DNA of 64,000 bases from assembly GCA_002189035.1 (NCBI GenBank), contig NEEC01000002.1, positions 5,851,001 to 5,915,000 of the forward strand, in the 5' to 3' direction. The notes under the pieces were generated by a model that was not told the origin of the DNA, made no database searches, and saw only the letters and a program-made list of their open reading frames with translations. Position 1 is the first letter of the stretch; the number at the start of each line of letters is the position of its first letter. Of this stretch, positions 7,862 through 49,100 are shown piece after piece. The DNA is from Utricularia gibba (taxonomy: Eukaryota > Streptophyta > Magnoliopsida > Lamiales > Lentibulariaceae). A program made the translations under genes and the position numbers.

Positions 7862-9402
7862 ATGGCTACGAAGCTCGAGTTCCTCTTCCTCACTCTTGTG
7901 CCTCTGCTTCTTTTCTCCTCAGTCGCCATAGAAGCGGTGTCCGAGGGAGACAGGGCCGCTGCAACATCGACAAAATCGACGCCCGTGAACCGTCCTACAC
8001 CCGGAAAGCAGAAGGCGGCGTCTCTGAGTTCTGGGATCACAGCAACGATGAGTTCCAGTGCGCCGGAGTTACCATCCACCGCCACCGACTCCGCCAAAAT
8101 GCTCTCATGCTCCCGGCTTACCACAACGCTCCGGTTCTCGCTTACATTGTTCAGGGTCAGTACATTTATATTTATCGATAGGGTGATTCTTCAACGTGAG
8201 AGAGATAAGTGGTAGACTGTTTACTGCAGGCCGGGGTATATTCGGGTTGATGATTTCGGGTTGCCCTGAAACCTACGAGTCGCCGCAAGAATGGGGGAGA
8301 GCACCGGTGAAGGCGGGAGGAGATTCAGGGATAGGCATCAGAAGGTTGGGCATTTCAGGGAGGGAGATATTATTGCGATCCCGGCTGGTGCTGCTCACTG
8401 GGCTTACAACAATGGCGATCAAGAACTCGTCGTGGTTTCTTTGCAGGACACCGCAAACTTCGCCAATCAACTCGATCGAACCCCCAGGGTAAATCAAAAT
8501 TGCATGGATCTGCAACATCAAATAATTGCAGAGCATGAAGTAATTCTAGTTTTTTTTTTTTTTCTCGTTAGTCTTTCTTCCTCGCCGGAAACCCGGAAAG
8601 AGGACAAGAACAGAGCTCGCGCAGAGGCAGCGGTGAGCATGAGTTTGGGAATGTTTTCCGGGGCTTCGATACCCGTTTGCTGTCGGAAATATTCCAAGTA
8701 AACGAGGAGACAGCAAGGAAGCTCCAGGGAGAGAATGATAACAGGGGCCATTTGGTCATCGTGGAGAGATCACTCCAAGTACTCTCTCCACCACTCCGCG
8801 GCGAGGAGAGAGAATACGATGAAGAGCCCATCAGAGGAAATGGACTAGAGGAGACAGTGTGCACCGCCAGAATCAGGGAGAACATCGACAGGCCTTCACG
8901 CGCCGACGTTTACAATCCACGCGCCGGTCGTTACAGCACCGCAAACAGCCTCACTCTCCCGATTCTCCGCTTTATCGGCCTCAGCGCCGCCAGAGGCGTT
9001 CTCCAAAAGAACGCAATAATGTCCCCACACTGGTACGTGAACGCCCACAGCATAGTCTACTTCACGCGGGGACAGGGCAGAGCGCAGGTGGTGAACCACC
9101 GCGGAGAAGCGGTGTTCGACGGGCAGGTGAAGGAAGGTCAAGTCTTGGTGGTACCATTCAACTTTGCGGTCGTGAAGCAGGCGTCGGAACAGGAGAATCT
9201 CGAGTGGGTGGAGTTCAACACTAACCACAATGCAATGATCAATACACTCAGCGGCCGGACATCCGCCCTTCGCGCGATGCCGGCAGATGTCCTCGCGGCG
9301 GCGTATCAGATTCCCAGGGAGGAGGCGCAGAGGCTCAAATTCTCCAGGGTGGAGACCTTCTTCAGCACCGGCAGGAGCAGCCGCGGGAAGGCGTCAGCCT
9401 AA
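7862..9402 (+). CDS. 11S globulin (legumin-type) seed storage protein; frame broken twice
   Basis: A bicupin storage protein, made as a precursor on the ER and cleaved in the protein storage vacuole. Exons are 7862-8155, 8230-8488 and 8572-9402. Exon 1 encodes a hydrophobic signal peptide ([18 protein letters not shown]). Further on are [10 protein letters not shown] and FQCAG with the expected cysteines, SGCPETY, the first cupin ([15 protein letters not shown]), the NGLEE cleavage site of vacuolar processing enzyme, and the basic-chain cupin ending near [12 protein letters not shown]. The signal peptide and the GRCNID part are in different frames (about 7935-7962). A second shift lies between ETYESPQE and RRFRDRH (about 8285-8318). 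Each is a net loss of one base. Exon 3 is uninterrupted, so the third intron usual in this family is absent. It is either a young pseudogene or sequence error. Confidence 0.85.
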
Positions 9403-11251
9403 ATGTATCCATCGGGTTTTTGTGGGAATAATGTTGCATGCAAAACGGAATAAATGATGAGACCTGAAACTTAACACTTTGCCACCAAAGTTATCATCTT
9501 TCACTTCATCAGATAAACCCTTACATCGAGCATTTGGACTCCAGATTCTGTTCACAAACCGATTGAAACCGCATTCATGTTACCTCTCATATATCTGAGA
9601 AGTTCAAGTTTATAGAAGGAGCGTAGATAGTGATCACTGATATACTACGAAGCACCTTTCATCGTTTGGACAAATGAATTGGTATTCTTTTTTCAACAAT
9701 ACCTTTTGATTTATTATCAATTATCACTGATTTTAATAAAATTTTGTTTTTTATATTAATAAAATGATAAAAATAATAAATTTTAGATATTTTTAAATTT
9801 TTCGTATCAGTATGCATATCCATAGTAATTATTTTTTACAGTTATATGTAAACTTCAATAGCTTATTGGATATGCTGGGGGCATTACAAACGCTTTTGAG
9901 GTTTATCATTGTAAACATGGTTATGCATTGTCCTGAAATTCTATAATCTCAACATTGGGGACGACTCCTATTAAAATAAGCAATCTTATGTTAAAAAATC
10001 AAAATGAAATAATCAAATATATAAAAAATTATAAATCAATAATAATTGATTGAATTTAATTTTTTATAATATGATACATACTTTTTGTATACGTAGGTTT
10101 CACATATATTTATTCGATTAATCGAATTCTTAATTTCAATAGTTTTTATAAACATCTGCTTCGCTAGCCATGGAAGAGCAACAACCCGTTGAGCATTTTC
10201 AACTTGTTGGTAATCGACTGCTTTGGTGACGGCATTTATGCAGGTCTCCCCACCCACACGCAGCATCATGCTCCAATTGGAGTTCTTGCAGTTTGAGTGG
10301 TCATGACCGTTAGTGATAGAAGTTGTGTTTCATTCCTTATCTGAGCATCCGGATCCGTTGGTCTACAAGGCAGATGAATACTTGTCCATACAATTGCGTC
10401 TCTATTTAAGTTTCCTTTTTTTTTTTTTGTTTATATCAAATAAATACATATTCTATTTAATAAACATATCTTATAAATATATAATTAAAATATTATTGTT
10501 TTTTATAATATTTAAAGGAATAAGAAAATTTATTAAAAAAGTAAATAAGATTTAATAAATCATGTAAATATTTTATAAATCACATACACATTAAAAATAG
10601 GTATACCAAATAAAGTAATTTCCAATATTTATAAAGATAAATAAAATCTATTAGATTATTGTGTCAACTTTTTAGTTTTAAGGTAAAAAGAATAACATGC
10701 CAAATGTGAGATTTATAATTGGTAATAATTATAATTATGTTAATGAATTATTTTGCGGATAAAAAAGATAATTACTTTTTTATTTATCATATCCTGAATA
10801 ACAAAATCAGAGGATTCCACGTTTCGCTGTCATGCACCTGTCGCCGTCTGCTGCGCTCCTCTCCTCTTTTTCTCTTTTATTTTGTCTAATCGTCTCTCGC
10901 ACGCGTTTAGCGTTTCCCTCACCGCAGATCTCTGCCTCCGTCCCGGAGTGCAACTTAACTCGCCATGGATCATGGTTTTTCTAATGAATCCTCTAGGATT
11001 CCATGATTCAGCGAGGATCGGATAAGACTTTCTCAATTCACGTCTCCTCTTGAGGGTTTCTGTTCATATCGACGATGCGGCGTGGCTGAACCGGCGCTAA
11101 AAAGCAAGCGATCGGCAATTTGTGTTCTCTTTTATTGGCTTATGTGGTTGAGTTCACCTAATTCTGTTACTTTGCGATTTTTTGTGAAAGATTATTTGAG
11201 ATTCGGGTGTATTTGGTGTTTTTGAGCCTTGACTGGTTCCGGGTAGTTGAT
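9403..11251. other. 11S 3' flank, AT-rich spacer and CK1 promoter/leader
   Basis: An AATAAA at 9449-9454 could serve 11S polyadenylation. 9700-10800 is AT-rich. A small island of higher GC at 10140-10390 shows no recognisable product. 10800-11251 is higher in GC and CT-rich and is probably the CK1 promoter, 5' UTR and a leader intron. Confidence 0.4.
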
Positions 11252-15022
<3,771 letters not shown>

Positions 15023-15568
15023 ACCGGGTAAGCTTGCTTGTGTTAAAAAACCAGTGTGGGAAGGGAAAAAGAATCCCACCCTTTTCATCTCTTTCTTCAT
15101 ATCCTCTTTCCCTCCCTCCCTCTTGGGTGGGGTGGCGGGACTGGATGAGAAGACAGTAATCTTGACTTGTCGTGCTCATTGTAAAAAGACGTGTTGTGGG
15201 GGCACTTAGAGAGCTGGCATTTGTTGCAGTTGCATGCCTCAAGGATGCACGGAATGAGGTGTCAAATTTTCCATTTTTCAGACACAAGATTCTATGTAAT
15301 GTCAACAGTATTATTATTATAATGCATTTGTTTCTGTGATTCAGTTTAATCCAGCTGCTCTGTGGGTTTTTCTCCACGCCTTTCGGGCCTGAAACACTGC
15401 TTTCGCGATGGCTAACCCCAGATGACTAGCTGGGAGAGAAAACTAGGTGTAGAATAAAAAGGAGAATTGGTGTCATATAACCGGTAAAACAGATAGTAAA
15501 AAGAGAAATATATTCTGTTGAAAACATTAGAAAAAAAGTAAAGAAAGAAATTTGAGAAAATGAATTAA

Positions 15569-15980
15569 GGGTATGTTCTAACCTACTTTTAAAATAATAA
15601 CTTCTTTTTATTAAGAAGTAGAAGTTAAAAAAAGAAGTATAAATTAGAAGTTATTTTTTGATAAATTATAAATTATATTTCAGTACTTATATTGATTTTT
15701 AGTTCTCATTTTTATATCAAATTCTCAATCTATCCTCTAGTTAAAAATATATTTTTATTTTGAGGAATAAATATATAACTTTATAGTAAAGAAGTAGAAA
15801 TAAGAAATTAGAAGTAACTTAAAATAAATTCTCATATTTCATATATTTGATAAGCAGGAGAAGTAGTTGATAAGTTAAAAGTAGAAATGTGAATGTTGTT
15901 TTGTTCTGACATTTTATTCTAATTTTTTTTGGAAGTAAAAGTAAAAAAAAAAAAAAAAAAAACTAGATTATAACATGCTC
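15569..15980. mobile_element. Tourist-like MITE (PIF/Harbinger type), 412 bp
   Basis: The left end GTATGTTCTAACCTACTTTT (15571-15590) and the reverse complement of the right end, GCATGTTATAATCTAGTTTT (15959-15978), match at 16 of 20 bases. The element is flanked on both sides by TAA (15566-15568 and 15981-15983), the 3-bp TWA target duplication typical of PIF/Harbinger elements. The interior is AT-rich, has no ORF and carries an A-run near the right end. Confidence 0.65.
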
Positions 15981-16167
15981 TAACATTCAAAATAAGCAAA
16001 ATATATGCTTTTGGATTTAGTGTTATTTTTTAAAAAATAAGAATACACTGAAATATATGTTGGTATATATGATTGATAAATAAACCATACTCCATTTCCT
16101 GTGTTTGAAGGTGTCCTCAATTAAGAGTATATGATATGGGTGGTTGACTTTCTTATTAATACATTAT

Positions 16168-16425
16168 ATTAGAATAAATAATTTCATATCAGCAAATTGA
16201 AGTGAAATGTTAGTGTATAATATATTATAAATTACTAATAATGTTATATACTATTAGAATAAACAATTTCATATCAGTAAATTGAATGTAAATGGTGAAG
16301 TATATATTATATTACACATCATTAATAATGCTGTATAATATTAGAATAAATAATTTTGTATCAACAAATTGAATTTAAATGTTCAAATATATAATAAATT
16401 ACATATTATTATTAATTCGATATAT
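16168..16425. repeat. Tandem repeat, three copies of about 86 bp
   Basis: Copies begin at 16168, 16253 and 16340. Each starts ATTAGAATAAA, followed by CAATTT or TAATTT, an ATATCA-like segment, AAATTGAA, and then a TATA-rich part with AATAATG. The copies diverge by substitutions and small indels. The repeat is non-coding, lies in the PCS upstream spacer and is probably a decayed minisatellite. Confidence 0.7.
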
Positions 16426-16586
16426 CTAATCTTTTATAATATTATTCATATTTATTTATTACAAGTAATTGTAATAAAATAATATGAAAGTTGAAATTCT
16501 CCACGTCCAACTGATTTTATTCTGGTTGAAGGGAACAAATAGGGAATAACCGTTTTTACGCCTGGAACCTGATTCCTCACTTCTGA

Positions 16587-19482: not shown

Positions 19483-21335
19483 TTACTCATCCTTCCCGTT
19501 GTTGACTTTGATCTCTAATAGGCGCTCAACGGGCTGTCTGCAAATCGGGCACCTGTCTGTTTGGTACCTCAGCACTTTCGCACACTCACTGCACATGCAC
19601 TGTGTTTTCAACCACAAAAACATTCATCACGAGCCTGAAGTCAGGAAAGCCAAGGTTTAGTGATGAGAAGATTGAACTGTACCATGTGTCGACAGGGTAG
19701 GACTGTTGTGTCGCGAGCTTCCGAGAGACAGATGACACACTCTTTGCCAAGATCATTGCCTTCGTATTCATCACCCTCGATCGAGTTTCCGATACCGTAT
19801 ATCTCCTGTAGCTCATACCTCATGCCATTCACCCACAAGATTTGCCTCACTACTCTCACATGATATTCCCCCTTGTCCTTCTCAAATACAGCATGAGTTA
19901 TCTGGGAGTTTGTGGAACCCGTGTCTGACTTGCCACGTTCGCTGTCTGGACAAGCCTCTGCCTTGATTGCAAGAGGGTAGACATCCATGTCCTTGTCCTT
20001 TGATAATTCTGACTCATCATACATTGAAAGATCGATTCCTGTTCCGGGCGCTTGTCTGAACCTCTGAGCTAAGCCTTGGTTGAAACATGCGGTGATTGGA
20101 GGATGTGCACTTTCTGAGACTGGGGTCAAGTGGCAATCTTTACCCTCCCTTGCGAAAAACATTACAGTGATGCTGCACGACATGGAAATCTCACATCAGA
20201 AAGCTTGGCTATTTCAGAAACATGGTTTATGCTACGCTGTAAACGATGACAAAACTGATAAATAAAAAAGTTGTTTAATTAATCGTTCAGTTGCCATCCA
20301 ACTTCGGAATATCCAACAAGCAATGGCCTTTAAGGAGGTGTAATCCATACCGCAGATTTCACAAGCTACACAAATAGGTAATTCATACTACAACGAAGTA
20401 GCAGATAAAAACTGCAATCAAGTGATAATTACGAAGCCAATTGCTGCTGATGACTCAGAAGATATTCTTGTTCTACAGTCAAGTAAAAGCTCACATTCTA
20501 AAATTCATAGAAACATCATGGTAAACCCAGAAAGTATCCGGCTTTCAAAACAGGTTTAAGGGATCAAGTGAAATGAACCATTAAACCAACACTAACTACA
20601 CTACCAGGCCATTTTACCCTTTTGATGTGCCTTCAATACGCATGCAGTAAACTTAAATGGTACACGATCAGCTATAAAAGCAACCATTCTGAATATAGAT
20701 CCATAAACATCGAAGAAGAACAGCCTTCCTAACACAAATTACGAAGTTGTATATATATGAAGCGAAAACGTCTGTTGATTACTCGAGGATCAGAAAGAAA
20801 AGCTAAAAACAGTGCATGAATGAAAGAGAACAGCATAGGCAAAGATGGCACTTTTACCTTCCGGCTACTGTAGCGTCAAACGTGAAGGAAACAAGATACT
20901 TCCCTGGATTCTCCTCATCAGGCTCGATTCTCAACGTTTCCTTCTTCAAATTAACATCATTCCGAATCGTAACCGCCTTCTGATGCTCCACATAGGGTGG
21001 AGGCGGCGGCGGCGGAGGCGGAAGCGCATGCTGCATCATCGGCCCATAAGGATAACGGCCGGCAACCCAACCCCATGGTGATGATCATACGTCCCCTGAA
21101 CTGGAATCGTTAGCGCACCGTGTGCCTGAGGCGGGTAATAACCCGGGTACTGGTAATACGGCGGAGGGTTTGGGCCGGGCGCTGGGTAGGCGGGCGGAGG
21201 ATAAGGCGTCGCCGCCGCAAAAACATACCGATTGTTGGTGGTAACCTCATTCTGGGGCGGAGGTGAGCGCGGGTGACCCCGGCCCGAAAAGTGCCATCTC
21301 CGGCCATTAACGCCGCTACTCCCCATGTTACCCAT
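19483..21335 (-). CDS. LUL: LOG2/LUL-type RING E3 ubiquitin ligase; one-base frame break in exon 1
   Basis: Plant MGRN-like E3 ligase. LOG2 of Arabidopsis acts at the plasma membrane with GDU1 in amino-acid export and ABA response. Exons are 21335-20858, 20172-19683 and 19599-19483; the sum of 1085 is one base short of 362 codons. It starts MGN, a candidate myristoylation signal. A Pro/Tyr-rich region ([12 protein letters not shown], poly-Pro) follows, then the DAR2-type domain ([50 protein letters not shown]). The C-terminal RING reads [22 protein letters not shown], then [20 protein letters not shown]. The frame changes between TYDHHH and AGRYPYG (21062-21075), where a G-rich run could have lost one base. 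The rest is well preserved. Confidence 0.92.
20184..20857. other. Large first intron of the LUL gene
   Basis: The intron runs from a donor at 20857 (AAG/GTAAAA on the minus strand) to an acceptor at 20173 (GTGCAG). No ORF or repeat of note was seen. Confidence 0.7.
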
Positions 21336-21625: not shown

Positions 21626-24238
21626 CTAGATGAGGCATGGCACTATCGCATCTCTGTCTCTGCTTCCATAGCTCCAGACCCACAACACCGCCTCCTCATG
21701 CCGCGTGTCTTCCTTCATCTTCATGCAGTTTTGCAGACACCGGAGTGATTCACATGTTCTACTGTCCAACCCACCGGAGAAGAAGACCTCTACGGTGTCT
21801 CCAACCTGAATCCAGCTGCATCCAGGGAGCTTCTTTAGCCCCCTCTGTCTCATCACTCCCCTCAACTCCGCTGACTTTTCCTTTACTCCTAAGTCCGCAT
21901 AAAAGTTCATGATCTGGGCATAGTTTCCGGGATCCATTTCAATCAGGCGGTTCGCAGCCATCTTACCAATCTCATCATTCCCATGGATCCTTGAAGCTGA
22001 CAACAACGACATCCAAATGCTGCTACTATCAGATGCAGAAGGAGTAGATGCCATGGCATCGATGAGCTCGTGTGCCTCTGCTAGATGTCCTCCCCGGCCC
22101 AAGAGATCCACCATGTTTATGTAATGATCCGTATTTGGTGCTATTCCATGGTCTTTCATGGAGTTGAACAGGGCTATTCCCTCATCGATGAAGCCACAGT
22201 GGTTGCAGGAGGAAATAAGGGACAAGAATGTTACCTCATCGGGTGCTACTCCTGAAGATTTCATCTCCTGGAACAATTCCAGGGCCTTATGACAATCACC
22301 ATGAGATCCATGCCCAGAAATCATTGAATTCCATGTAACTACGTCTCTTCTTGGCATGTGGGAAAAGAGCAGCTGTGCATATCTGAAGAAGCCACACTTG
22401 ATATACATATCTAGTAATGAGTTTTCCAACTGAAGATCCCGAGGTAGCTGAAATCTAATGAAGTAAGCGTGTACTGATTTACCTGCAGGTAACAGAGCCA
22501 TCTGTGAAATGGAAGATAGTGCAATGGTGATCGTTATGCAGTCGAGGCGCAAATCATATTGCAGAATTTCTGGGAGAAGAGCAAGGGAGACATCAGGCAT
22601 GCCATTTAGAGAGTAACAAGACATTAAGGAATTCCACACAGCAAGATTCTTCCACAAGACACCAACGAATGATCTTCTTGCCATTTCTGGTTGTCCACAC
22701 CTCGAATAAAACTCAATTAAAGCATTTCCTGTATAAGCATCAAGGTCCAAGCCAGCCTTGATTGTGTAGCCATGGATAGAACAGCCTAGGAGACTACAAC
22801 TGAGATTAGAACAACAACTAAATGCATTTGCAAGAATATTAGGATCCGGCTTTATATCAACATGTAGCATTTCTCGGAATAACATCAATGCCTCATGAAA
22901 CTCTAGATTCTCAAGACTCCCAGATATCATGGATCCCCAAGCTATCAAATCCTTTTCCTGCATTGCAGCAAAAATAATGCGGGCTTCTTTTTTCTTCCCA
23001 AGCTTCGAGTACATCGCCTGTAACGCACTTTGGATAGTTTTACTATCTTCAATGAGCCTCTTACAGAGCTCCCCATGTATCATACTTCCCATGGAGAATG
23101 ATCCACTCACACTGCAAGCAACCAAAGCGCTTGAATAGGTGAATGAATCAGGAATGATGCCTCTATGTCTCATGGAAGTATAAACTTCCAAAGCATCATT
23201 ACCATATCCCTGGTGCACATACGCAGAGATGGTAGCATTCCATACTTCAACCTCCACATGTTCATCACGAAATATAATCCTCCCAGCATCTTCAGGATAA
23301 CCACTCTCACAATACGCAGTTATCAGAGAAGTGCAAACGTACGGATCATTATCACACCCCATCTTAACCAGGTCACAGTGCAACTGAGTGGCAATGCGCA
23401 CATCCTCACCCTGTGAAGATGCCACCAACAGAATGGCAAATGAAGCAGACCCCATGTAGTGGCCTTTTCTCTTTGCTGTGATGAGTAGTTCCAAGCCCTC
23501 TATCCATAATCCATGGCAACAAAACCCACTGATCATGGAATTCCACACTGCAGTATAGTAATTATTCTGCAACTTTTCAAAAACATTCCTAGCATCTGCA
23601 AGCCTACTATAACAACAGTACGCATCAATCAATGCAGTAACTACAAAAGGATCATCATCACAAAAATTTCTTATCGCAAATCCATGAGTTTCTTTCCCAC
23701 ACAAAATATTTGGAAAAGCTTTACATATTCCCAGAAGAATGCACAGTGTATACGCATCAGGCCTGACATTAAAAAGTAGCATCTGGCTAAAACGATGCAT
23801 TGCCTCCTCCAAAGATCCATTCTTGAAGTAGCCATGGATAATGGAATTCCAGAGCGCAGTATCTCGAAGCAAGACCACCGATGACTCATTATCGAACAAC
23901 TTACTTGCTGTGCTAACAGACCCACTCTTGATATACAGTCTGATCAGAGAATTGACAATGTAAGGATCAAAAGAGAAACCCAGCTTAATAACTGAAGAAT
24001 GGAGTGCCTCACCATATCTAAAATCAAGAAGCAAAGTGCAAGCTTTTAGAAGTGAAGGGAAAATGAATCTGAAGGTGTAGGAATTATAACAGGTTCGTCT
24101 AGAATACAAGTCAAGTGCCTCTGAATACTGACCGCGCTGAACAAAGGACAAGATCCTTTTATCGGAATTATCTAAACAGGAAACATGAATTCTTCTGAAA
24201 ACAGAACGTGATGGAGAGATCAAAAAGCCATTACGCAT
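21626..24238 (-). CDS. Pentatricopeptide repeat protein, PLS class with E-type C-terminus
   Basis: Single-exon gene of 870 aa (ATG at 24238). PLS-class PPR proteins bind organellar RNA, often for C-to-U editing. The sequence is a tandem array of roughly 35-residue helical repeats with the usual signatures, such as PYIVNSLIRLYIKSG, WNSMISGHGSHGDCHKALEL, PDEVTFLSLISSCNHCGFID and MVDLLGRGGHLAEAHELI. The end carries E-like elements (GCSWIQVGDTVEVFF) and no DYW domain. The N-terminus is basic with hydroxylated residues (SPSRSVFRRIHVS), compatible with mitochondrial or plastid import. The specific orthologue and target RNA cannot be told from this. The frame is intact. The stop lies 290 bases upstream of the LUL start codon on the same strand. 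Confidence 0.93.
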   Translation of the reverse strand: MRNGFLISPSRSVFRRIHVSCLDNSDKRILSFVQRGQYSEALDLYSRRTCYNSYTFRFIFPSLLKACTLLLDFRYGEALHSSVIKLGFSFDPYIVNSLIRLYIKSGSVSTASKLFDNESSVVLLRDTALWNSIIHGYFKNGSLEEAMHRFSQMLLFNVRPDAYTLCILLGICKAFPNILCGKETHGFAIRNFCDDDPFVVTALIDAYCCYSRLADARNVFEKLQNNYYTAVWNSMISGFCCHGLWIEGLELLITAKRKGHYMGSASFAILLVASSQGEDVRIATQLHCDLVKMGCDNDPYVCTSLITAYCESGYPEDAGRIIFRDEHVEVEVWNATISAYVHQGYGNDALEVYTSMRHRGIIPDSFTYSSALVACSVSGSFSMGSMIHGELCKRLIEDSKTIQSALQAMYSKLGKKKEARIIFAAMQEKDLIAWGSMISGSLENLEFHEALMLFREMLHVDIKPDPNILANAFSCCSNLSCSLLGCSIHGYTIKAGLDLDAYTGNALIEFYSRCGQPEMARRSFVGVLWKNLAVWNSLMSCYSLNGMPDVSLALLPEILQYDLRLDCITITIALSSISQMALLPAGKSVHAYFIRFQLPRDLQLENSLLDMYIKCGFFRYAQLLFSHMPRRDVVTWNSMISGHGSHGDCHKALELFQEMKSSGVAPDEVTFLSLISSCNHCGFIDEGIALFNSMKDHGIAPNTDHYINMVDLLGRGGHLAEAHELIDAMASTPSASDSSSIWMSLLSASRIHGNDEIGKMAANRLIEMDPGNYAQIMNFYADLGVKEKSAELRGVMRQRGLKKLPGCSWIQVGDTVEVFFSGGLDSRTCESLRCLQNCMKMKEDTRHEEAVLWVWSYGSRDRDAIVPCLI

Positions 24239-25469
24239 TTGATGAGTCAAGAAGCAATACGTCTACAGTTAGGTTAACCAATCCAATGACTCAATAGAAC
24301 CAACCAGTATGTGCAAAGTGACGTCGACCCCTGATGATCACTCTTGGATTCACAAAGTCATAAACTTCCACCTAGAAAACAAAATCAAAATAGAAGAACT
24401 GGAGGCAAGGGGATTCATTTGTACGGAAGAACGCCGCCGTCTACCGGCATGAACGCTACTACTGCACATGATTCCCAGTTTGCGATTTCTCCTCGAATAT
24501 GGCGAAAAAAAACCAGAAATCCGACGCGGGTTGAGGTCAATAAGTCCGTCAAGGAAGACGACTAGTAGTAGCACCAGCAGAGAGATGGAGAGAAGTCGCC
24601 TTCGCCTAATCCAACACTTGAATTCAACAATCAAATGAACCACCCACTCACAAGTTACAGTGGCCTGCGAAATATTTGAGAGGGGAAATCAATTTCATTC
24701 ACCTCCTATTTTCAAATTATTTGAAAAATAGGAAAACCGCATGAAAAAATCACTTAATAAATAATTTTAACTGATAAAAAATAACTGATGTATAATTAAA
24801 ATATTTTTAAACATACTTATTGTAAAATTAATTCATTTTTCACATTAAAAAAATAACATATTTATTTATATTTATTAATAATCATATCTTATAAATTTAT
24901 AAATAAAAAACATGTTTATAATTTATAAAAAAATTACCTACTTTAATTTACATATAATTTAAAAATGAAATAATTTCAATAATTTAAAATAATTATTTAT
25001 ATCATAACGAATATAATTATAAATTTAAGGACTGTGCGGTAGAATTGTTAAAGTTACTTAACAAGAGGTTTTAATTTTAGAAGATATGACTTTACAAATA
25101 TGGAAAAGTTTTGGAATGTGACGATTAACATGGGGATGTTTAGATTTATCCACAACTCATCTCTAATAAGTATTATTGGCTTGCTCTCACTAGAGTGGTG
25201 AGAAAGAACTCCAGAAACCTAGAAGCAAATGATGAAAAACTAAATAACAAAGAATTGAAAGAATGATGATTTTTAAACAATGTTAGCAAATACATAGTCA
25301 ATCTAACATACTGTATGCTTATTTATCTAAATAACAATAATCAAACTATAAATTAAACAATTCTATCAAATAGGGACTTAATTAAATAATATTTCAATAT
25401 CAATAGTGGCATATCACATCAATCATCTTACTAGTAAATGAGGTAAATACATGTAATTTTTACAAATAG

Positions 25470-26863: not shown

Positions 26864-26869
26864 TATATA
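26864..26869 (+). promoter_or_regulatory. Candidate TATA box of the RTFL/DVL gene
   Basis: CTCTATATACACC lies about 75 bases upstream of the ATG at 26941, after a pyrimidine-rich stretch. This suggests a leader of roughly 45 nt. Confidence 0.45.
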
Positions 26870-26940: not shown

Positions 26941-27110
26941 ATGGGGGAGGAGACAAGGAGAGAGAGGAGAGCTCCGGGGGAGGCGGAAGCCGGTCGTTCG
27001 GGGAGAAATGCAGCGAGCTAGCGAAGAAGCAGAGGGCGAAATTCTACATCGTCCGCCGCTGCATCGCCATGCTCGTCTGCTGGCACGAGAAGAACGACCC
27101 CAGAGACTGA
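26941..27110 (+). CDS. ROTUNDIFOLIA-like / DEVIL small peptide (RTFL/DVL); frame break near the N-terminus
   Basis: RTFL/DVL proteins are short plasma-membrane-associated plant peptides that limit cell proliferation and alter organ shape when overexpressed. The frame ending at TGA 27108-27110 encodes [20 protein letters not shown] then [15 protein letters not shown], a clear match to the family's C-terminal RTF domain. The only upstream ATG, at 26941 ([10 protein letters not shown]), is in a different frame. An upstream in-frame stop and the absence of another ATG mean one base must be missing between 26944 and about 26990, a G/A-rich stretch. With one base added the protein would be about 56 aa, normal for the family. 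A TATA box and pyrimidine-rich leader precede it. Because of the break, it does not show as a long ORF. Confidence 0.8.
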
Positions 27111-30363: not shown

Positions 30364-31059
30364 ATGAACGATGAAATGAGAGGGGAGAAAGATGAGCAGG
30401 ATAAACGAATTATTCGACCTGGTTGTGATGATTTTGGCAGAGAAATAGCAAGAATTGCTGTTGCCCAAGTGTGTCAGACCGTTGGATTCGAGACATTTTA
30501 CGAATCTGCTCTGGATTCTCTAGCTGGCATCGCCATTAGATACATCGTTGAATTGGGCAAGAGCTCAAAGTTTTATGCGAGCGTATCTGGAAGGACTGAC
30601 TGCAATATATTTGACGTTGCTCACACTTTGGAAGACTTTGCCCCTTCTAAGGATACTTCAAAGCTTCATTCTCATTGTGTGGTTAACAGTGGTATCATGT
30701 TGGAGCTTGAGAAGTACGTAGAGACTGCTGAGGAGATACCTTTTGCACAACCCTTGCCGAGATTTCCTGGCATCAGATATCCAAACCGGATACCAAGTTT
30801 CTCACAAGTAGGAGAAGCACCGAAGTCAAAGCATATACCAGCTTGGCTGCCAGCGTTTCCCGATCCTCACACATACATCCAAACACCTGTTTGGAATGAC
30901 AGGGTCACTGATCCTCGTAGTGATAAGATTGAGCTAGCAAGGCAGCACAGAAAGGCTGAAAGGTCGTTACTGAACTTGCACCAACGGCTGCTATCAAGTG
31001 GATTGCAGGAGGGAACTAACACCCCCATTTTGAAAACCCATTCACACATATACCCCAGA

Positions 31060-31091
<32 letters not shown>

Positions 31092-31412
31092 GTAGAAGAA
31101 GAAAAAGTCTCCCCAGTAAGCATTCCAGCAGAGAAGTCTGAAACGCTGCTACAGACATTCTCACCTGCAATCGAAGCAATGAGAGATAGGTTGCATTCTG
31201 AGGGTGCTCCTAGCAAGAGACCTCGTGTAATCTTGGAGTTCAAAAGCAATAAAAGGTTGTTGGGCGAACCGGTTGATATGATGATTCAGTGCGTGGCTCT
31301 TGGGAAGAAGGAGCCATGGTTTGGACGTGATGGGGTGAAGGATGATAAGAAAAGAAGGGTTGAGTTTATGCTGAGACAGTCTTTGGAAAACCAGCTTGAG
31401 GGCTTCCACTGA
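30364..31412 (+). CDS. TAF8: TFIID subunit TAF8; one-base frame break at an AAG repeat
   Basis: TAF8 is a histone-fold subunit of TFIID that pairs with TAF10. A single coding exon of 1049 bases is one short of 350 codons. The N-terminal bromodomain-associated histone fold (REIARIAVAQVCQTVGFETF, then SALDSLAGIAIRYI) is followed by the conserved TAF8 C-terminal region (IPAWLPAFPDPHTYIQTPVW) and a LARQHRKAERSLLNLHQRL helix. The N-terminal frame runs into a (AAG)n tract at 31063-31089 read as poly-Lys, then stops. The downstream frame reads the same tract as poly-Glu and continues VEEEKVSPVSIPAEKSE to the natural end LENQLEGFH. Family tails are acidic here, so the second reading is the expected one. 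One base is missing at the start of the repeat (31050-31070). Confidence 0.88.
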
Positions 31413-32567
31413 AAAGTGCTGAGCCTCTTCCCTGGTTCAATCAACCATGGGGATTCCTTTTGGTTCGGTAGTGTTCATCTGTGTTGTCAATTCTACGGAT
31501 AAACTGAACTTTGAAAGTTAGAGGGTGATAACGCGAATTGGTTTGAGTAATATATCAATATGATATATTAAATAATTATTAAAAAATACATTCGAGAATG
31601 ACATCCCACTTGAAGTATCTCGGAGATGTTTTAATACTATAGTATAATGTTTAATTATTTGTGAATAATATTTTTTATATATATTTTGAACGTGATACAT
31701 AACTGCACATTATTTGATAAATCTTTTTTAATGGGGAATTTTAAAAAAAATGCACTCCGGAGGTCAAGAATTTCACCTACAATTCTGCGTTATGCCCCCC
31801 GTAAGGCTCCTGCTCTGTTCTTCCGCTCCTTGTGATTCTGGTGCGGAGTCCCGTTAGTCTGGTTCATTTGTCTCCATTTTTCAATGACCTTGAAAACATC
31901 CGATCTTCGATTTTTGTTTTTCTGGTAGAGTTTTGGTGGCGGCAGCTGTAGTTCTTGGGCAGGGCGTTTTTGAATTCGATTCCTGGTGAGTTACTTTGCT
32001 CGATAAAAGGATCCGATTTTATTTTCCGACGTTTATGTTGAGGAATCAACTAGGGTTTGCGGTGTGGTGATTTTTGGGTGGCAATATCCGATCTTTGAAT
32101 GCTGTTTGAGCAGGAATTGGGCTTCTGTGACCAGATGTTTGCTGATAGTTTTTTAGGGCTAGGGGCCGTAAATTTATTAATTCTTAACATCTGTGGTACT
32201 CTAAAGCTTATGAATTGATGGAAATGGTGGTCAGGTTTATATTGTGTCGTTTTAATTACGAAGCGAGAAGTGCAAATGCAGTTCTGGATTGTTGTATAAT
32301 TGAATGATTCGTGGTTGTTTTTTGGAAACCCTACAGTGGGGGTTTTTCGCTAAATGATCTTGAGGTTTAGGCCGTCATGGCTCATTCTAGAGTTTAGTTT
32401 CCAAATAATTTTTTTACAGGGATTTTTCTCTTTATCCAGGTTTTCCCCCGTTGGGAATCACCGGCTATTGAAGTGTGATCACATGCATGATTCCAGGAAA
32501 GGCATGTACTAGTGAGAGCACATTTGCTATGGGATTGTTATACAGAGGTATCAGTTCCATCTGATTG
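31413..32567. other. TAF8 3' flank and leader of the trihelix/kinase gene
   Basis: 31413-31760 is AT-rich. 31780-32567 has the T-rich, moderately GC texture of a 5' UTR with introns; possible acceptors occur at TTTTTTACAG and CTTTATCCAG near 32420-32440. No coding region was seen. Confidence 0.4.
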
Positions 32568-34856
<2,289 letters not shown>

Positions 34857-38579: not shown

Positions 38580-39728
38580 ATGGGTTTCAGCTTCGAGGCC
38601 GGGGTTCTCGGTGTCGTCATTCTAGCGCACGCTGCTCACGCCACTATTCAATGTAAGATTAAAACTTTTGATTACAACTTCTCCGAACTCGAGATCCGTA
38701 AATCCTATTTGTTTTAAACGATTCATTTGTTTTTTCAGATCGATCCTTCCTCAAGATTATAGGAGATGAGTTCTCTGGGCCTCCATTCGCCGTATGGTTA
38801 ATTTTGATAGTAACTGTGATTACCGTCTGTCGTGTTTGATCAGTTCCTAGATTTGCCAATTTTCATGTGGGGACGGGGTAAATTATGCAGGTGGTGTTGG
38901 AGCTGTTGGCAGGTTTGGGTTTTTGCCTGTGGGCTGCCTTGACTGTGCCTGGAAAGTTCTTGTCCATACGTCCCCAGGACGATGAAAACAGGTTTTTGAT
39001 CCTTTCTTCTTCTACTTCCATTTTCCATACAATGATACAATTCAGTATGGATAAAGATTCCTAGAGAAACTGGGTGAATATTGAGCTTTTCCTGTAGAAA
39101 ATTGGGAGGTGGAATCAGGTCTAGATACAGTTTGATCAGGTCCTTTGTATAATCTTTCTTTGGTTTGTGCGAAAAAAATTGGGAAATGCCTGAGTTGACA
39201 GAGCATCCGAGGTGAAACATAATCTCTGGTTTGCCCAACGAACAATTTAAGTATTTGGGTGGTTAAAAAGTTGGTATTTACCAGGGGCTTCCCTTACCAT
39301 TCCAATGATCTGAGATCCTGGAAGCAGTTCTGTCGTATATCTTTAAATGCAAAAACTTAAAATCTCAACAAGGATGAGAATATTTCAATGAGCAAGACAG
39401 CTTTACTTCATTTTGATACAGAAGAGGTATTATTTTGTAGAGTTATTTCATGCCAAGAATTTCCCAGCCATTTCTCCAATGGGGAAATGATGTTCGAATA
39501 TTCACATGCATATTGCACCATATCTGATCTCTGGTCTTCAGTATTCGCATTTTAGGTTGTTTTAGATCGACATTAGTATTCTTAGATTGTTCGTTCAGTC
39601 TTTTATGCTTGTGTGATATCAGGGTGGTGGCTCTGCCTGCAAATCTGGATTTCATGATCTTCAACCACCGAGGCAAAGCGTTTCCGTTGGCCACCACGAA
39701 CAGCAAACCTTCTGGTTATTTGCTTTAG
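38580..39728 (+). CDS. EMC5: ER membrane protein complex subunit 5 / MMGT-like protein
   Basis: EMC5 (MMGT1) is a small membrane subunit of the ER insertase that inserts tail-anchored and multipass proteins; it was earlier described as a magnesium transporter. Four exons (38580-38652, 38739-38791, 38891-38991, 39623-39728) give 110 aa with consistent phases. There are two hydrophobic segments: VLGVVILAHAAHATIQ near the N-terminus, and VVLELLAGLGFCLWAALTV in the middle. The family signatures EFSGPP, VPGKFLSI, NRVVALPANLDFMIFNHRGK and the aromatic tail are all present. The 631-nt third intron is long relative to the gene. The frame is intact. Confidence 0.93.
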
Positions 39729-40655
39729 CAGCATTGAATTGTAAGCAGTTGGATTAGGACCGTCTGTGTGAAGCTTTGATTTGATAGACTTTATACAAAT
39801 GATATGTTTGGTACGTTTATTTAAACTACTAAACATATATTAGGGTTAACCGAACCGAAACTAAATCGAAATTGAATTAAAAATAGAAATACATAAAGTA
39901 TATACTTATCTAAAAAAAGGATTAATTCAGCAAATAACCAAATTAATCGATAACTGATTTATGCCAAATTTTACTAACAAAAACCCAATCGAATTTTTCA
40001 GTTTCCGTTTGGTTCGATTAATCAATTTTCTTGATTACTAATCGAATTTTACTCTGCCATACATGCATGTTTTAAAATTAGACATATTTTGTGTAATTTA
40101 TAAAATATTTGAATAATTCATATAATCATATTTATCAAAAATTTTATCTAATTTGAGGTTTTTTAATCAATCAAGTGTATGGTATATGTCATATGTATTT
40201 ATTACATATAATAATATTATATATATATATATATGTAATAAATACTTATTAACATATAGATTTTGAATATAATAATATAATGTATGTCTATCAAATGTGT
40301 TCAAAAGATTATCATTTCAGTGTGATTCAAAAGTGCCAAGAGCGAACACTCTATTTTCAATTTTTCCCGGAAAGAATTAAACATTATTCCAAAATTATAA
40401 TTTTGAGAAAATGCTAATAAAAATAGACTATACGATATTCATGATTTTTCCTTTTTAAGATAAAAAAATTAATATTAAAAATAATAATTTGTAATAGGGC
40501 AAAATGTTGATATTAAATTGAATAATACAGAAAATAAAAAAGAAAGAGAAAATCTGAAGTCTTGAAATTCGGGAGACAGAAGTCCTCCTTTTTCCGAAGT
40601 TGAGAGGGCAGTCACTCGAACTCAATGCTGCAGCATCCATCTCCATTTTTCTGCT
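39729..40655. other. AT-rich spacer with (TA)n palindrome
   Basis: Contains a (TA)n run at about 40213-40231 flanked by the inverted TATTTATTACATA and TATGTAATAAATA. No coding region was seen before the PTST leader (about 40560-40655). Confidence 0.45.
40195..40245. repeat. Near-perfect palindrome around a (TA)n microsatellite
   Basis: TATTTATTACATATAATAAT and, after the (TA)n core, TATGTAATAAATA form inverted arms able to make a hairpin or cruciform. It is a simple repeat, probably unstable in length. Confidence 0.55.
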
Positions 40656-43152
40656 ATGGCTTCGTGTTATTGCTTTCGGAGTTTCATCCCTCTCCCTTTA
40701 GGAAGACTCGACACTTCTTGCAATCTTCTTTTTCCCAAGTTTCAGTGTTACCCTGCAACCCGTAATGAGGCGAATCATTCGAGAATCTCTGCGTCTTTAA
40801 AGAAACCCAGGTTGCGATGTGTTTTCTAGATTTAGGGTTTCGAATTAGTAATGCATGTGTTTATGGATTTTGGAGTACTATTTCTTCTTCTCTTTGCCGT
40901 GTCTGCCGTTTTGACATTGGCGGAGTTAACAGGAGGGCGAAGAGCAACGATGAACTTGTGCACGATATTAGGGAGTTTTTGTCATCTGTTGGACTCCCTG
41001 AAGATCTTGTGCCTTCAATGAAAGTGCTTTCCCAACATGGAAGGTTTGAATTGTAGCTCTTAATTTTCATTGATGTTCGGTGAATGGCATTAAGTACCGA
41101 ACTTCATCCTCTTTCTTTGTAGGCAAATTAAGAGTCTTGTTAACCAATGCATGCAGGACTTGTTTTTGGATTCTTATTGTAGAACTTTCAAATATTGCAG
41201 AGGCTTGATAGAGTTTATACATGTTTCCTTGAGTTTCCATTGCTAATATGATGACATTGGAATGCATGAAGAAGTCTAAAGCTCTGCATGTTAGGGCTTA
41301 TGATTGGTCAACTGAGTGAATTTGTATGGTTGATTTTGTAGACAGGACCTGGCTTACTTGGTCAGGAGGCGAGGTTATAAGTTTATCAGACAGCTTCTCG
41401 AGGCTTCCACCCAAGCAGTCAGTGATACCGAAAGAACAGAGTCTTTTCAGGCTGGAAATTTAACTTTGCTCAATCACTCTGGGAGTAAATGAAATATCTT
41501 GATTGTATCATTTGCGTCATTTAAGAATGCTCTTCATTTTCATGATCCCGGTATTCTGATTAAAGGTCGGGATGAGAGACTGGGAGTTTTGGCTGGAGTA
41601 GGAACGTATGAAGAGATGCAACTCAATTCTAGTACAGAAAAAGCTGAAAATCCCGAGCTTAAGGATGAAATTTCATCTAATTCCCCATCTCTGGAAGAAG
41701 CAGTTGCTAGATTTATCGAGCATGGGGAATTAGAGACACTGGATGGTATGGTTTTTCCATTTCTTCAGACCAACATTCTAAAATAGCCATCGGAGCTACT
41801 TCAGTTCTATGGATACGATTTCTTTCATAACCTAATATGTTGGGTTTAATTTATGTTTAAGCAGAGTTATCCTGCAAAGAAAGTGGAACAACTCTAGCGA
41901 GAAATGAGCACAGTGGGTTGAAGAAAATAAATGGAAATGGCTCTATTGATCATTCCGTTATTGAGAATATTAGCTCCTGGTTAGTTTACTGCTTCTTGCT
42001 GCTTCAAAAAACTTATTTATATTCTTTTCTTATGTGTATTGTTTTTGCATCTTGAAATGTCTAGTGAGGCGTCTAGCATCCAAGATACGGAACATCACTC
42101 TAGCAGTCCGGATCATGATATTGAGGTTGTGGTCAAAGTGATTTGGTTAATAGCATACTGAAAATTTTCACAGATTCTCCAGATTTCCACTGTTTCACCT
42201 TAATCACTATTACTACTATTTTTGTGTGGAAGACACAGAAAATGGAGTATGAAGATGAAATTAAGCATCTGAGTTTCTTGCTGGTAAAAAAATTACACGC
42301 TGCCACCAGTAGTTTCAGATTGTGACTTGATCATCTCATGTTATCATGTTCATTATTTTGTTTGATAGTTGGACTATATATTAAATCACGCTGTTCTTGC
42401 CTTTCTGTAGCGTCAAAAAGAATTGGAGCTAGTAGATTTGAAGCAGCAGATAGAGAAGGAAAAGGTACATACGTAGAAGCTTTACTTCTGCAAGAAAACT
42501 CATCCTTATTAAACGCAATATCACTTCTTTTCAGAGTGTATTGTCTGCTCTGCAACTAGAAGCGAAGATGAAAATTGAAAAATCACAAGAACTTGTCTCC
42601 CAAAAAGAGATGGAATTGCTCGCTGCAGAAGAAAATCTAGCTGGATTAGTTGAGGTAAGCTAAGCCTGTCAAATTGCATCATACATCTGATGTGGGATTC
42701 TGAAAATTGGAATGGCATACTTTGCTCTTAGGCCGTGGTTCAGTTTTCTGTGGAAGGTGAGAGCGTAGAGCTAGCTGGTAGCTTCAACGGCTGGTGCAAT
42801 AAAATCAAAATGGAAGCAGAGCCATCCCCAGTCAGGTCATGCCTCTTCTTCTGTTGTTTGCCTTCTCCCCAAACTTCCTGTATATCTTCTTCAGAAAACA
42901 GAATCTGAAGTACTTCTCTTCAAATTCTTCAGGAAGCGAGTATGGACAACAGTGTTATGGCTCTATCCAGGGATTTATGAGGTGATCAATATATTGCATA
43001 TACATAAAAGCTTTTGCTCTGAAAGTATTGATGATGTTCCCTTGCTGCATGATCAGATGAAGTTTGTGGTGGATGGGATTTGGATGACGGATCCTGAAAG
43101 AGAGGTTGTCTTCAGAAATAACATTCAGAACAATGTTCTTCGGATATACTAA
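40656..43152 (+). CDS. Plastid CBM48 starch protein, PTST2/PTST3 (FLO6)-like; one-base frame break in exon 1
   Basis: PTST2/3 (FLO6 in cereals) are stromal coiled-coil plus CBM48 proteins that supply primers for starch granule initiation. Exons are 40656-41043, 41342-41484, 41566-41745, 41865-41979, 42065-42125, 42239-42283, 42411-42464, 42535-42654, 42732-42835, 42933-42981 and 43057-43152. The sum of 1355 is one short of 452 codons. The N-terminus (MASCYCFRSFIPLPLGRL) resembles a transit peptide. It is followed by the family's SNDELVHDIREFLSSVGLPE and RRRGYKFIRQLLEAS motifs, a charged coiled coil (RQKELELVDLKQQIEKEK onward), and a CBM48 (VQFSVEGESVELAGSFNGWC, then KFVVDGIWMTDPER) to NNVLRIY. 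The transit-peptide frame and the downstream frame differ by one base somewhere in 40700-40826. Confidence 0.87.
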
Positions 43153-43273
43153 TCATGCACATGTTATTGATCACAAAAAAAAAAAAACGAAAACATGCAC
43201 CAGTCTTGTACAGAATCTACAAAATAGAGGATAGATGTAGTCTGTAATATTCTACAACAACAAGTTGACATCT

Positions 43274-43358
43274 CCGACCTTAGCTCAGTTGGTAGAGCGG
43301 AGGACTGTAGTAGTCTGCTGTGATCCTTAGGTCGCTGGTTCGAATCCGGCAGGTCGGA
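43274..43358 (+). tRNA. tRNA-Tyr (anticodon GTA) with a 12-nt intron
   Basis: The acceptor stem CCGACCT pairs with AGGTCGG and the discriminator is A. The D arm reads TAGCTCAGTTGGTAGAGC. The anticodon arm GAGGACTGTAG gives anticodon GTA, and the T arm CTGGTTCGAATCCGG contains the B box GGTTCGAATCC. An intron (43311-43322, TAGTCTGCTGTG) sits one base 3' of the anticodon, as expected for nuclear plant tRNA-Tyr. The mature tRNA is 73 nt before CCA addition. A CAACAACAAG run lies about 10-20 bases upstream, as is common for plant tRNA genes. Confidence 0.96.
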
Positions 43359-43361
43359 TTC

Positions 43362-43367
43362 TTTTTT
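43362..43367 (+). terminator. Pol III terminator of tRNA-Tyr
   Basis: A run of six T begins four bases after the tRNA 3' end. Confidence 0.8.
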
Positions 43368-43572
43368 CTTGTTTATTTTTTCCTTAAAATGTGTTGGGCC
43401 TTGGGCTTCCTATGGCTGATAAAGGGCCCAAATATTTGGGCCGGCTCAACGACTGCTGGTGTTTCTTTTTATTATTAAAACTACGATATTCCCGATATTT
43501 TTGGACGAGTCGCCTCCGCATTGGTGCAAACTGCCGAACCAGTAGTGATCGTGGAGCGGCGGCACCGGAGAG

Positions 43573-44570
43573 ATGGCTGGCCGGAGCATCACGTATATCA
43601 CTGCTTCGCAGCTCATCTCCCTGAAGCGAAACCCTGGTATTGCTATTGTCGACGTCAGGTGTTGAATCCTTACTGCTCCTTACAAATGATCTAACCCTAT
43701 CTTTTGTTTGATATTTTTATGATGCTAAGGATTTCGATATCTGTTCAGGGATGAGGAGAGGAGTTACGATGGTCACATTCTTGGATCGCTTCATTTCTCC
43801 AGCTCCTCCTTTAAAGATCGGATGCCCAGTCTTGTTGAAGCTACTCAAGGGAAAGATACCCTCGTTTTCCATTGTGCTCTCAGCCAGGTCTCTGCCTTAC
43901 TCTCTTGTTGATTGATTCGGAAACTGATCGAATTTATAGTGATTTGATTTTAGTGGAAGTATGCATAAGTTTCTGCAGAGGGGTCCTTGTTTTTGTGGTG
44001 CTAGGACTTAGACCTTGATTGTCATTCTCCCTAAATATGAGGCTGCTGAAATCAACATGCTGTTATTGGTAGTCTTTTTTATTCTTTGAGATTATGAATA
44101 GTATTTCAATGCATGAAAAATGCTGATTCATCTTGAATCTGTGGCTTGGAAGATGAGCCAGGTGTTTTGTTTTTATGGGTGAGCTTTTTGTGATGGTTGG
44201 TTCCACAATTGGGAGCTTGTTTGAAATGGAATAGTTGACCATCGGGGGAATGTCATGTTCTCTTACCAAATGTGTGTAGTTTGTCTGCAAGTGGAGGGAG
44301 CTCTTTTAGTGAAGTCATCTGCTACCAGTATCCTTTTCTTTTTCAGTTCAACTTTCGTACATACTGTACAGGTTGCAACACGGATGACAGTGTACTTTTT
44401 CTCCATAGGTTCGTGGACCAAAATGCGCAAGAATATTTGCAGAGTATGTTGCTGAAGAGAAGGGAGTTGGGTCGAAGAACATCATGATTCTCGAACGCGG
44501 TTACAATGGCTGGGAAGCATCGGGGAATCCAGTTTGCCGGTGCAAGGACCCTGCCTGCACGGGCGTTTGA
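43573..44570 (+). CDS. CDC25-like tyrosine phosphatase / ACR2-type arsenate reductase
   Basis: Small plant rhodanese-fold enzyme. The Arabidopsis orthologue (CDC25/ACR2) has tyrosine phosphatase activity in vitro and was described as an arsenate reductase. Three exons (43573-43658, 43749-43887, 44409-44570) give 128 aa. The active-site loop HCALSQVR (C71 to R77) satisfies HC-X5-R and spans the second intron. [32 protein letters not shown] and [12 protein letters not shown] are family signatures. The C-terminal CRCKDPAC matches the Cys-rich zinc-binding end of plant members. The frame is intact. The ATG lies about 215 bases after the tRNA-Tyr. Confidence 0.93.
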
Positions 44571-46128
44571 ACCCAGAGTAGGAAGAATAACTGGCTCCAT
44601 AAGATGCTGGATAGCCATTAGTGTATCGTCTGCTGCCTCTTTGTTTTCATATTGGAGACGTTGAAATGTGCAGGACAAGACGAATTTGTTTCATATTCTG
44701 AATTGAGCTTCGTGTTATCAGAGAAAGGTACAGGTGAATCAATACCCTTTTGTCTACATGGTCTCAGCATCCATTCGCTCGCCGGAGATCCTCAGCTCTG
44801 ATGATCTCTTTAGCCAATTTGGTGTAGAGGGAGAGACCCTCAACCACACCATAAACAGTAGCCAGCCCAAGATAGCGAGATCCGAAGTGTGGCCGGAGCT
44901 GCGGTGGATCTGCGGTTCGGATGTTGTACCTCTCGGTACAGTGCACCGCCGGAATTATCCCAGCAGCGGAATCCAGATTCTGATCCGGTGCCGGTGGAGC
45001 TTGTCTGTTTTTAATCCCCATTCTTTCCTAAAATATGTTTCCTTACTTTTTATGGAAAGAAAGGGATTCAATAAGAATAACAACGCCGAGTTACAAGTCC
45101 AATTTTATCATTCTGAAAAAAACTATATTGTTTTTTTGAAAATTGTTTATCGAAACAATAAGATTATTTTTTAACGAAATTGTTTATCTCCTTCATTCCT
45201 TCCTTCCTTGTTTTCATCTATGCCACTGCAATCAAAGGATGGGCATAAGATGCGAAGATAGGTTATCTGTTTGTGAATTTGGAATTCATCATATTCTTTT
45301 TCTTTGGCTTATGTTAACATAAAAATATAACTAATTATTATTCCTTAATACAATATTGTACATCTCGAATATTTAAATTTCATAATTTTATGTTTTTTTA
45401 TTTAAAAAAAACTTCGTGATTTTTTTATATAAACTATATCTTTATTCCATTCCTAATCCATATGGAATTCATCTTGGACCGTACCCTTCCCTAGAGTGGA
45501 GCTGATGATCTTGAGCTTGTCAAAGGATTGTTGATGACACTACTATTAGAAAGTTCCAACTTTTTCTGTCGATTGGCCAACATCTCACCTTTTTCCAACG
45601 AGAGAGAAAGATGGACTACTGGCTTGCCACTTCTTCCTTGTATTCATCATGCCGAGCATGTGGCGCCTCTCCCCTTCTAAGGAATGTAAATGGGATGAAG
45701 GTATGTGACTTCCATCCATCTCAGTCGAGTATGCTTTTCGACTGTTGCTGATCCTGGAACTGAAGGAAGCACCATATTTAACACAGGCTGCTTGTTCTTT
45801 ATCTTGATGAGTTTCTCACAGTGGTGGCATGCCCATTCTTCTCAAGGTAAGTAAAATTTCAAAGAAGCACCAACTTCCCTGCAACATATGGTGTGTGACA
45901 TTGTTCCAGTTAATCCATACTAGTCAATATTGGTACTCATGCACATCTTCAGATACACTTCTTACCCTCTAAACTTCCACATTAGAACGAAGAATCAAAG
46001 TTGAACATAATAGATGCATTAGAGTAAGTTGATCATCATGCTAAGTCTAGTGTCATGGCATTGGTTGATTGTCATAATAATCAAAGGAGCAATGGCTGAG
46101 GAATGCCGCAACAAATCAGTTGTGTGTC
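44571..46128. other. CDC25 3' flank and spacer before NodGS
   Basis: 44571-45020 is GC-richer than normal for a 3' UTR and carries an unsupported 85-codon minus ORF (see rejected). 45300-45440 is AT-rich. 45470-46128 is of intermediate composition and without a recognisable gene; its end is the NodGS 3' UTR. Confidence 0.35.
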
Positions 46129-49100
46129 TTAGTACCGATGGATCAGCTGCCTCCACTCATCCTTGTTTTCTGTGTAGTAGTTGATCTCAGCCTGAATAAA
46201 TAAGCTCACAAGTGAACTGTCGAGCATGAAAGTATATTATGCAAAATGTGTTCATTTTGAAACAGAATCATATGGACTTCAATCAGTTTATATGCCATTG
46301 AGATTTCTGGAAGCTACCTTTCTTATTGCTTTAATGGCAACCAGAAGCTTTTCACCGATCAAATCTTTCATAACTGAGTCCTTTTCAAGGGCTTCGACAG
46401 ATTCAGAGAGAGACTTTGGTAGCCTCTTCACCTTGTCTTTAAAATTGTCCGGATTAGCATCTGGTAAGAAAAAACCAACATTCTAGCAGTTGAGTGCAGC
46501 AGAAATCCAAGTAAAACCGAAATGTAGGTGTTTTAAACTATTTTATAGGAGAGTAAACTGCACTGGAGATCTCTATATGCAGTAAGCTTGCTTGTATAGC
46601 AGAAGATCAAGATGTAAATGTTGCGCAAGTCTTACCAATTGGTTCAGGAATCTCAGAGTGTTTGCGTAGACCATCGATTCCGGCAGCAATTATAGACGCA
46701 AGGCCAAGGTAAGGATTGGCGCAGCCATCAAAGGCCTTGATCTCAAAGTTGCTCACAAAGCCAAAAGGAATTCCTGGTGGAGAAGCAGCTCTTATGGGAG
46801 CTTCTCTATTTTCCATTCCCAGCAATGGTATGCACCACTCCATGTGTTGGGTTGTAGACGATCATAACTGGAGAGTACAAATATATTAGACTTCACCTCA
46901 TTAGAAACCATAGCAGACAGGCTCATGAGACACAAACAGACACTCAGAAGTTAAGAACCATGAAAAAGCATCAACCTGTTGGGAATTGGTGCTGTGAATG
47001 CCAGTATAGATGGAAGATGATTGAGTACTCCAGCCATGAACTCCTCCCCAATTGCAGAGATCCCGTACCTACTTGTTCCTTTTTGCCCCATAAACACATT
47101 TTGCCCATTCCTGAACAAACTGAGGTGCACATGTGATCCAGAGCCGACATCTTCAAGGGAGTACCTAGAAAAAGATGAGACATTGCTTATCATTGTGGTG
47201 TTTGGCTTAATATTGAAGTCCAAAACCCAGGAAAGGTAAGTTAGATCAAAAAACTTCAGAGCCTAAAAGCCTGAGCTTAGGGGGGAATGATTAATTAAGT
47301 ACTCACTTGGGTACAAAAGTAGCCATTAACCCATGTTTTCTTGCCACTCCCTTGATAACTTCACGCGCGAAGATGAGTTTTTCTGCAGCACTTTCGCAAG
47401 CTGTATACCCCAAAGCAATTTCAAATTGACCATGCCCCGCTTCTGCATGCAGCTAAAGAAGGATTTCGAACAGAGAATAATGCTTCAGCCACTATTTAAT
47501 CATTATGAAGAGAAAGTTTCTTTAGTTGCATCATTGCCTAATCATATATTCAACTGGGCAAGAAGGTAAACAGAAAAAGATGAAAGATTTTAAATCATCA
47601 CACCTGTTCCACAACAATATCCAGTGATTGAAGTGAGGCCGCAATTTCACTAAGTATAGGAAAAGCAGCATCGGTTGAAGAGGCTGAACAATAAGTAGTA
47701 TGATCAAAAGGCACCCATTTCTCTTTCCCATCACTGCAAGTGTGTCTCGTTCATCAGTTCTCAACAAGCACGAACGAAAAAAAAAAATCAATATGAAGCT
47801 TCTCCCAACATACACTGACTCATTCCGTAAGAGATAAAATTCGCTCTCGAAACCGGCATTCATTATCTGCATAACCAGCTATGTCACAAAAAGCATACAT
47901 GTAGTACACTAGCGAACGAGTATATGTCAGTTAATACCAAGTCAAATTCATCCTTCAGAATTTTTGAAAGTCTTTGCAGTGTCCATCTGGGACAATATTC
48001 CCATGGCGTTCCAGGTCTGAGATGCATTGCAGCAAGAACCATCTCTTGCTTCTTTGCCCTGGAAAACCAAATGGTGGAATAGCATGGAAAGACTCTTCCA
48101 TTATCTCAGTGGACCATTCTTAAACCATACATGGTAAAAAATGAAGACAAGTGACAAGGCAATAGAAAGAACAATAGGAACTATCATATATACTTGATAA
48201 GAACACTGCTCCAGCATGGAAGTGCAAAGCATCAAATATTTTTAGAACAATGGTTAACTTATGGGATTGAGAACTTTCTAACAAGGGAAATCTAATGAAG
48301 AAGTAAATATACTCAAATATGTGATCTTCAAGATTTCCAAATGGCATGCTTCTGACATACCAAGGAATTAGGACTTTGGTTGATAAATCAGGCATAAGTC
48401 TGATTTCACCAGATACACCTAGATTACTTCCTTCAGCCGGACAGTCTGTGTAGGAGCTCATTCCCATTGACGCACAGGTTAGTCCGAGGCCGTTCGATAT
48501 GATGAGGTCATGGAAGCGCTTTCTTGGAACCACCTGAAACAATAAAAAACACAGTTGTAGAGGGAATTACATTACCAAAGTCACATGACTGTGACATTTT
48601 TGTCAAGGTAAGAATTAAAGAGGTAAATTCGTACAATTCAGGAAACCGAGAGTCCAGCAAGCATAAAGAATGAGAAAACAGCTACTTGATGAAAATCACA
48701 GGGCAATTTAACCAGTACATTCTACCATGCCAAATACATAATGTTAAGCTGAAAAGCTTACACGACATCTGTGCTGTCCTGAAGCATCAATCCATATAAC
48801 ACGCACAAATTCGATGCCTTCAACTGAAGCATGATGACTAAGATCAACAGGAATAGAGCCGTTTAAAGTGGATGAAGCTGAGGAGCCTTCAATCTTATAA
48901 AAAAGCTTGGCATTTTCAGATAATATTTCTTTAGCAGCTTGAATAGCTTCAGGGATTGATAGGTCTCCATCGGTGCACGCATCCCGCAGGACAGAAAATA
49001 TCACCTCACGTCCATTTTTTGCACCTGTTTAATGGAGTCAAATCCAAAAAAGAAGTAAAATGATGAAGCCTTGAGAATCATATGGAGAGTGGACCTAAAA

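Follow-up and report, generated by a model that had tools for sequence, protein, structure and literature searches.

Frame breaks in the window

The window, the whole 64,000-base stretch analysed here, spans positions 5,851,001-5,915,000 of contig C451 (6,822,880 bases), one of the 516 contigs (100,091,633 bases) of a plant nuclear genome assembly that we scanned for frame breaks. It carries genes for an 11S globulin, a casein kinase 1 (CK1), a LUL-type RING ligase, an RTFL/DVL small protein, TAF8, a trihelix/kinase protein, a PTST-like protein and a glutamine synthetase-like NodGS protein, together with UTP18 and PPR genes that each form a single open frame and served as intact controls within the window (Table 1). 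The trihelix (Myb_DNA-bind_4) and amino-acid-kinase (UMP kinase-like) domains apparently belong to one gene. A tRNA that ARAGORN calls tRNA-Leu reads by eye as an intron-containing tRNA-Tyr.

Table 1 Genes, frame breaks and other features of the window (window coordinates)
Feature	Position	Strand	Remarks
UTP18 gene	5165-6925	-	single open frame, 586 aa; intact control
11S globulin break 1	7930-7950, at 7939/7940	+	net -1; signal peptide frame to mature chain frame
11S globulin break 2	8285-8318, at 8297/8298	+	net -1; G5 run ends at 8297
CK1 break	12460-12480, at 12472/12473	+	net -1
LUL-type RING ligase break	21062-21080, at 21074/21075	-	net -1; G4 run
PPR gene	21626-24262	-	single open frame, 878 aa; intact control
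RTFL/DVL small-protein gene break	26941-26990	+	net -1; G5 run at 26943-26947
TAF8 break	31050-31093	+	net -1; run of four Cs (C4) / GAA repeat
Trihelix and amino-acid-kinase domains	32565-34525	+	apparently one gene
Trihelix/kinase gene break	32725-32760, about 32728-32736	+	net -1; N-terminal frame to Myb_DNA-bind_4 frame
PTST-like gene	40656-41461; exons 40656-40810, 40933-41043, 41342 onward	+	no break; splices open, in frame
tRNA	43273-43359	+	tRNA-Leu (ARAGORN); tRNA-Tyr with intron by eye
NodGS break	46815-46824	-	net -1; G3 run at 46818-46820; between AYHCW and MENREA

Window genes were assessed by three-frame translation, which left eight breaks in seven genes of the nine in eight that an earlier note on this DNA had proposed. 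The PTST-like gene drops out, as in-frame splicing suffices to read it: a GT at 40811 and an AG at 40931-40932 are followed by a second GT-AG intron, and the three exons join open and in frame, which rules out a ninth break. The note's further claims, that every break is a net single-base loss and that none needs a base removed, were borne out, with all eight confirmed sites shifting the frame by -1 and no break among the window genes examined calling for a removal; a net loss here means -1 modulo 3, and exactly one base only at sites with an aligned intact duplicate. Under random direction, eight of eight has a probability of 1 in 256. The window genes examined contained only net -1 changes, and not the mix of gains, losses, stops and larger indels expected of pseudogenes. 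A coding-frame Viterbi model was dropped as a break finder because it was too weak and missed known breaks.

Intact duplicates and coding constraint at the break sites

Positions 5000-46000 of the window belong to a partly inverted ohnologous block shared with C304:2501000-2630000, in which the 11S and CK1 genes lie one way, LUL and RTFL the other way and TAF8 as 11S and CK1 do; the block supplies partners for all five of these genes. For four of the eight window breaks (two in 11S, one each in CK1 and LUL) the genome also contains intact duplicates without the break, longer by exactly one base at the site. For the 11S globulin, alignment places one extra base in the intact C304 ohnolog at each of the two sites, and the remaining differences in coding-exon length are multiples of three. 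For CK1, the additional base is found in three paralogs (C304, C411 and C505), and the reading over the junction is colinear with the rice CK1-like structure 3sv0. For LUL, the frame of the C304 ohnolog runs open through the break site.

The other four breaks were read from gene anatomy and homology. In the TAF8 ohnolog on C304 both flanking halves lie in one frame, and the repeat at the break is absent there. Separately, a codon near the C-terminus of this C304 copy (C304:2510260-2511360) is an in-frame stop but encodes tryptophan in the window copy. The DVL domain of the RTFL gene has no in-frame start codon, the only ATG upstream of it being in another frame, and the relatives on C304 and C505 start in frame; this anatomy of the open reading frame gives moderate support to the break. 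Support is likewise moderate, and of the same kind, for the trihelix/kinase gene, whose Myb domain lacks an in-frame start while its N-terminal frame is out of phase; a search for a duplicate in the same genome found none. None was found for NodGS either, and there the joined reading aligns with the glutamine synthetase-like structure 4hpp gaplessly at the junction.

We then counted substitutions between window and C304 copies by codon position in the shifted frame. Three segments of the 11S gene past its breaks gave 6/3/15, 8/2/13 and 14/2/55, and the LUL gene past its break gave 2/4/14; TAF8 past its break showed a weaker third-position excess (7/7/17). The loss of coding constraint expected after the break in a pseudogene was thus not seen in 11S and LUL, where the third-position excess persists. 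This bias argues against old pseudogenes; a very recent real mutation would show it too.

One-way losses in conserved families elsewhere in the assembly

As genome-wide frame reporters we used conserved, mostly intronless families (GRAS, HSP70, PPR and KCS), a non-random sample; match tables for P450 and cellulose synthase were left unused for break direction because introns fall between the matches. At the sequence level we read 13 single-base losses in 11 GRAS genes with no clear gain, four losses and no gains in HSP70, and one loss and no gains in PPR. Together with the window, all 26 breaks read at this level (8 in the window and 18 elsewhere) are losses, a result expected with a chance of 2^-26, about 1.5e-8, if losses and gains were equally probable. 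KCS adds three losses and no gains, known by coordinates only and kept outside the 26.

Several GRAS loci were set aside or reinterpreted in this count. An apparent +1 on C244 resolved into two successive -1 breaks, the short segment between them being readable in the intermediate frame, and a candidate on contig C4 proved to be a normal intron. The gene on C414, ambiguous between two losses and one gain, was left out, as were those on C416, C3 and C402 and a second C244 locus, which look divergent or decayed.

The breaks are spread over many contigs irrespective of gene function, and apart from their breaks the affected GRAS, HSP70 and KCS genes show good conservation. Density varies by family: very roughly, a base is lost every 2 kb of coding sequence in the window and every 4 kb in GRAS and HSP70 genes, with few breaks in PPR and P450 genes. 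One HSP70 break on C304 recurs on the 31-kb contig C241, with 16 substitutions in 2,957 bases between the two, and because C241 has the same break despite these substitutions, it may be real, or it may be a systematic error made twice. Over parts of C304, in inverse orientation, the 31-kb contig reaches 99.4-99.7% identity (loci C241:8501-18500 and C304:2235301-2245300), and it would be either a haplotype copy or a recent duplicate.

Base context of the breaks

The earlier note had placed the breaks in or beside short homopolymers (GGG, AAA and G/A runs). Runs do adjoin them, chiefly runs of G or C, and AAA accounts for a minor part. A G/C run of at least 3 lies within 8 bases of 23 of the 26 breaks against 22-29% of intact coding control positions, one of at least 4 near 16 of 26 against 4-8%, and one of at least 5 near 9 of 26 against 0.4-1.5%; each junction was assigned to the run closest to the shift in frame, a placement that favours and inflates the association, so that its p-values are not to be taken at face value. 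Three of the 26 have no G/C run above 2.

A cleaner test of context comes from the PGGPP motif of GRAS proteins. In 17 intact copies the longest G/C run at this motif is 2-4, the run being interrupted in the intact paralogs, and in copies broken at or near it the longest run is 4-6 even after the loss. One intact GRAS copy (L110) keeps a run of six Cs (C6) elsewhere in the gene; error at such runs is therefore not certain. In a census of run lengths, long G/C runs were not sharply truncated. The note's attribution of the breaks to deletion-type consensus error is strengthened by other contigs, where conserved families of unrelated genes show the same one-way losses beside G/C runs.

Origin of the frame breaks

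We consider it very likely that the window breaks are single-base deletion errors in a long-read assembly consensus and not biology. Raw single-molecule reads would under-call homopolymers, above all G/C runs; a consensus made without short-read polishing would settle one base short at some of these sites; and each dropped base would shift the frame of a gene that is intact in the plant. We infer a PacBio platform and expect the missing bases to be present in the reads. The long-read reference of Utricularia gibba is a PacBio assembly (PMC10663240, PMC8333044). Close parallels exist in bacteria: a PacBio assembly of E. faecium ATCC 700221 retained 561 single-base homopolymer deletions after three Quiver rounds (PMC4888979), and that of Streptomyces albus SM254 retained 205 indels, almost every one in a homopolymer of G or C (PMC4832174). 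These HGAP/Quiver residues, which remain after self-polishing, share with the window breaks the loss of one base at homopolymers, mostly of G/C. In contrast to the bacterial cases, the present one concerns a plant genome and is drawn from gene frames and paralogs rather than short reads, and its density per coding base appears higher.

Real pseudogenes, redundant copies left by whole-genome duplication in which single-base deletions became fixed, would also place a frame-breaking indel in one of two duplicates, and the window does lie in a block duplicated with C304 that offers partners for 11S, CK1, LUL, TAF8 and RTFL. The 11S gene is broken twice, and the stop in the C304 copy of TAF8 points to some decay, or to a substitution error. 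This account is nevertheless very unlikely, since third-position bias persists past the breaks, every break is -1 where decay would also bring base gains, stops and large indels, no duplicate was seen for NodGS or the trihelix gene, and the losses recur in unrelated GRAS, HSP70 and KCS genes that are well conserved apart from them. A mixture, in which most breaks are consensus errors and a few (for example 11S or the two-contig HSP70 break) are real frameshifts, is a variant of the consensus-error reading that does not exclude it, and is possible, if on the unlikely side. The HSP70 break common to C241 and C304 speaks for it; an error made systematically at this G run would, however, likewise appear on both contigs. 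Individual window sites, the 11S copy above all, could be true mutations.

Short introns, and not missing bases, do explain the frame changes in the PTST-like gene and the GRAS gene on C4. As an account of the other sites they are highly improbable, because the two frames there are contiguous or overlapping, leaving no space for an intron, and the duplicates align base for base. Real deletions, made tolerable by programmed frameshifting or by polymerase slippage at runs, would fit breaks that sit at runs with coding constraint persisting beyond them, but such rescue would be needed by seven unrelated genes in 39 kb plus many elsewhere, no common slippery sequence was seen, several breaks fall at runs of 2-3, and paralogs with interrupted runs are intact; we regard this reading as extremely improbable. 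Equally improbable is a miniaturised plant nuclear genome with real one-base losses at G/C runs in working genes, their frames being restored at transcription or translation.

Under the consensus-error reading, the window frame breaks are very probably an ordinary assembly artefact and matter only as a caution on gene models. If the loss rates are typical, many gene models from the assembly would be split or cut short, and a loss of genes or domains claimed for this organism would need confirmation by transcripts or short reads. The DCL3 truncation of U. gibba, which we had considered as a candidate artefact of this kind, was dropped because it has been confirmed by transcripts and 5' RACE (PMC8333044).
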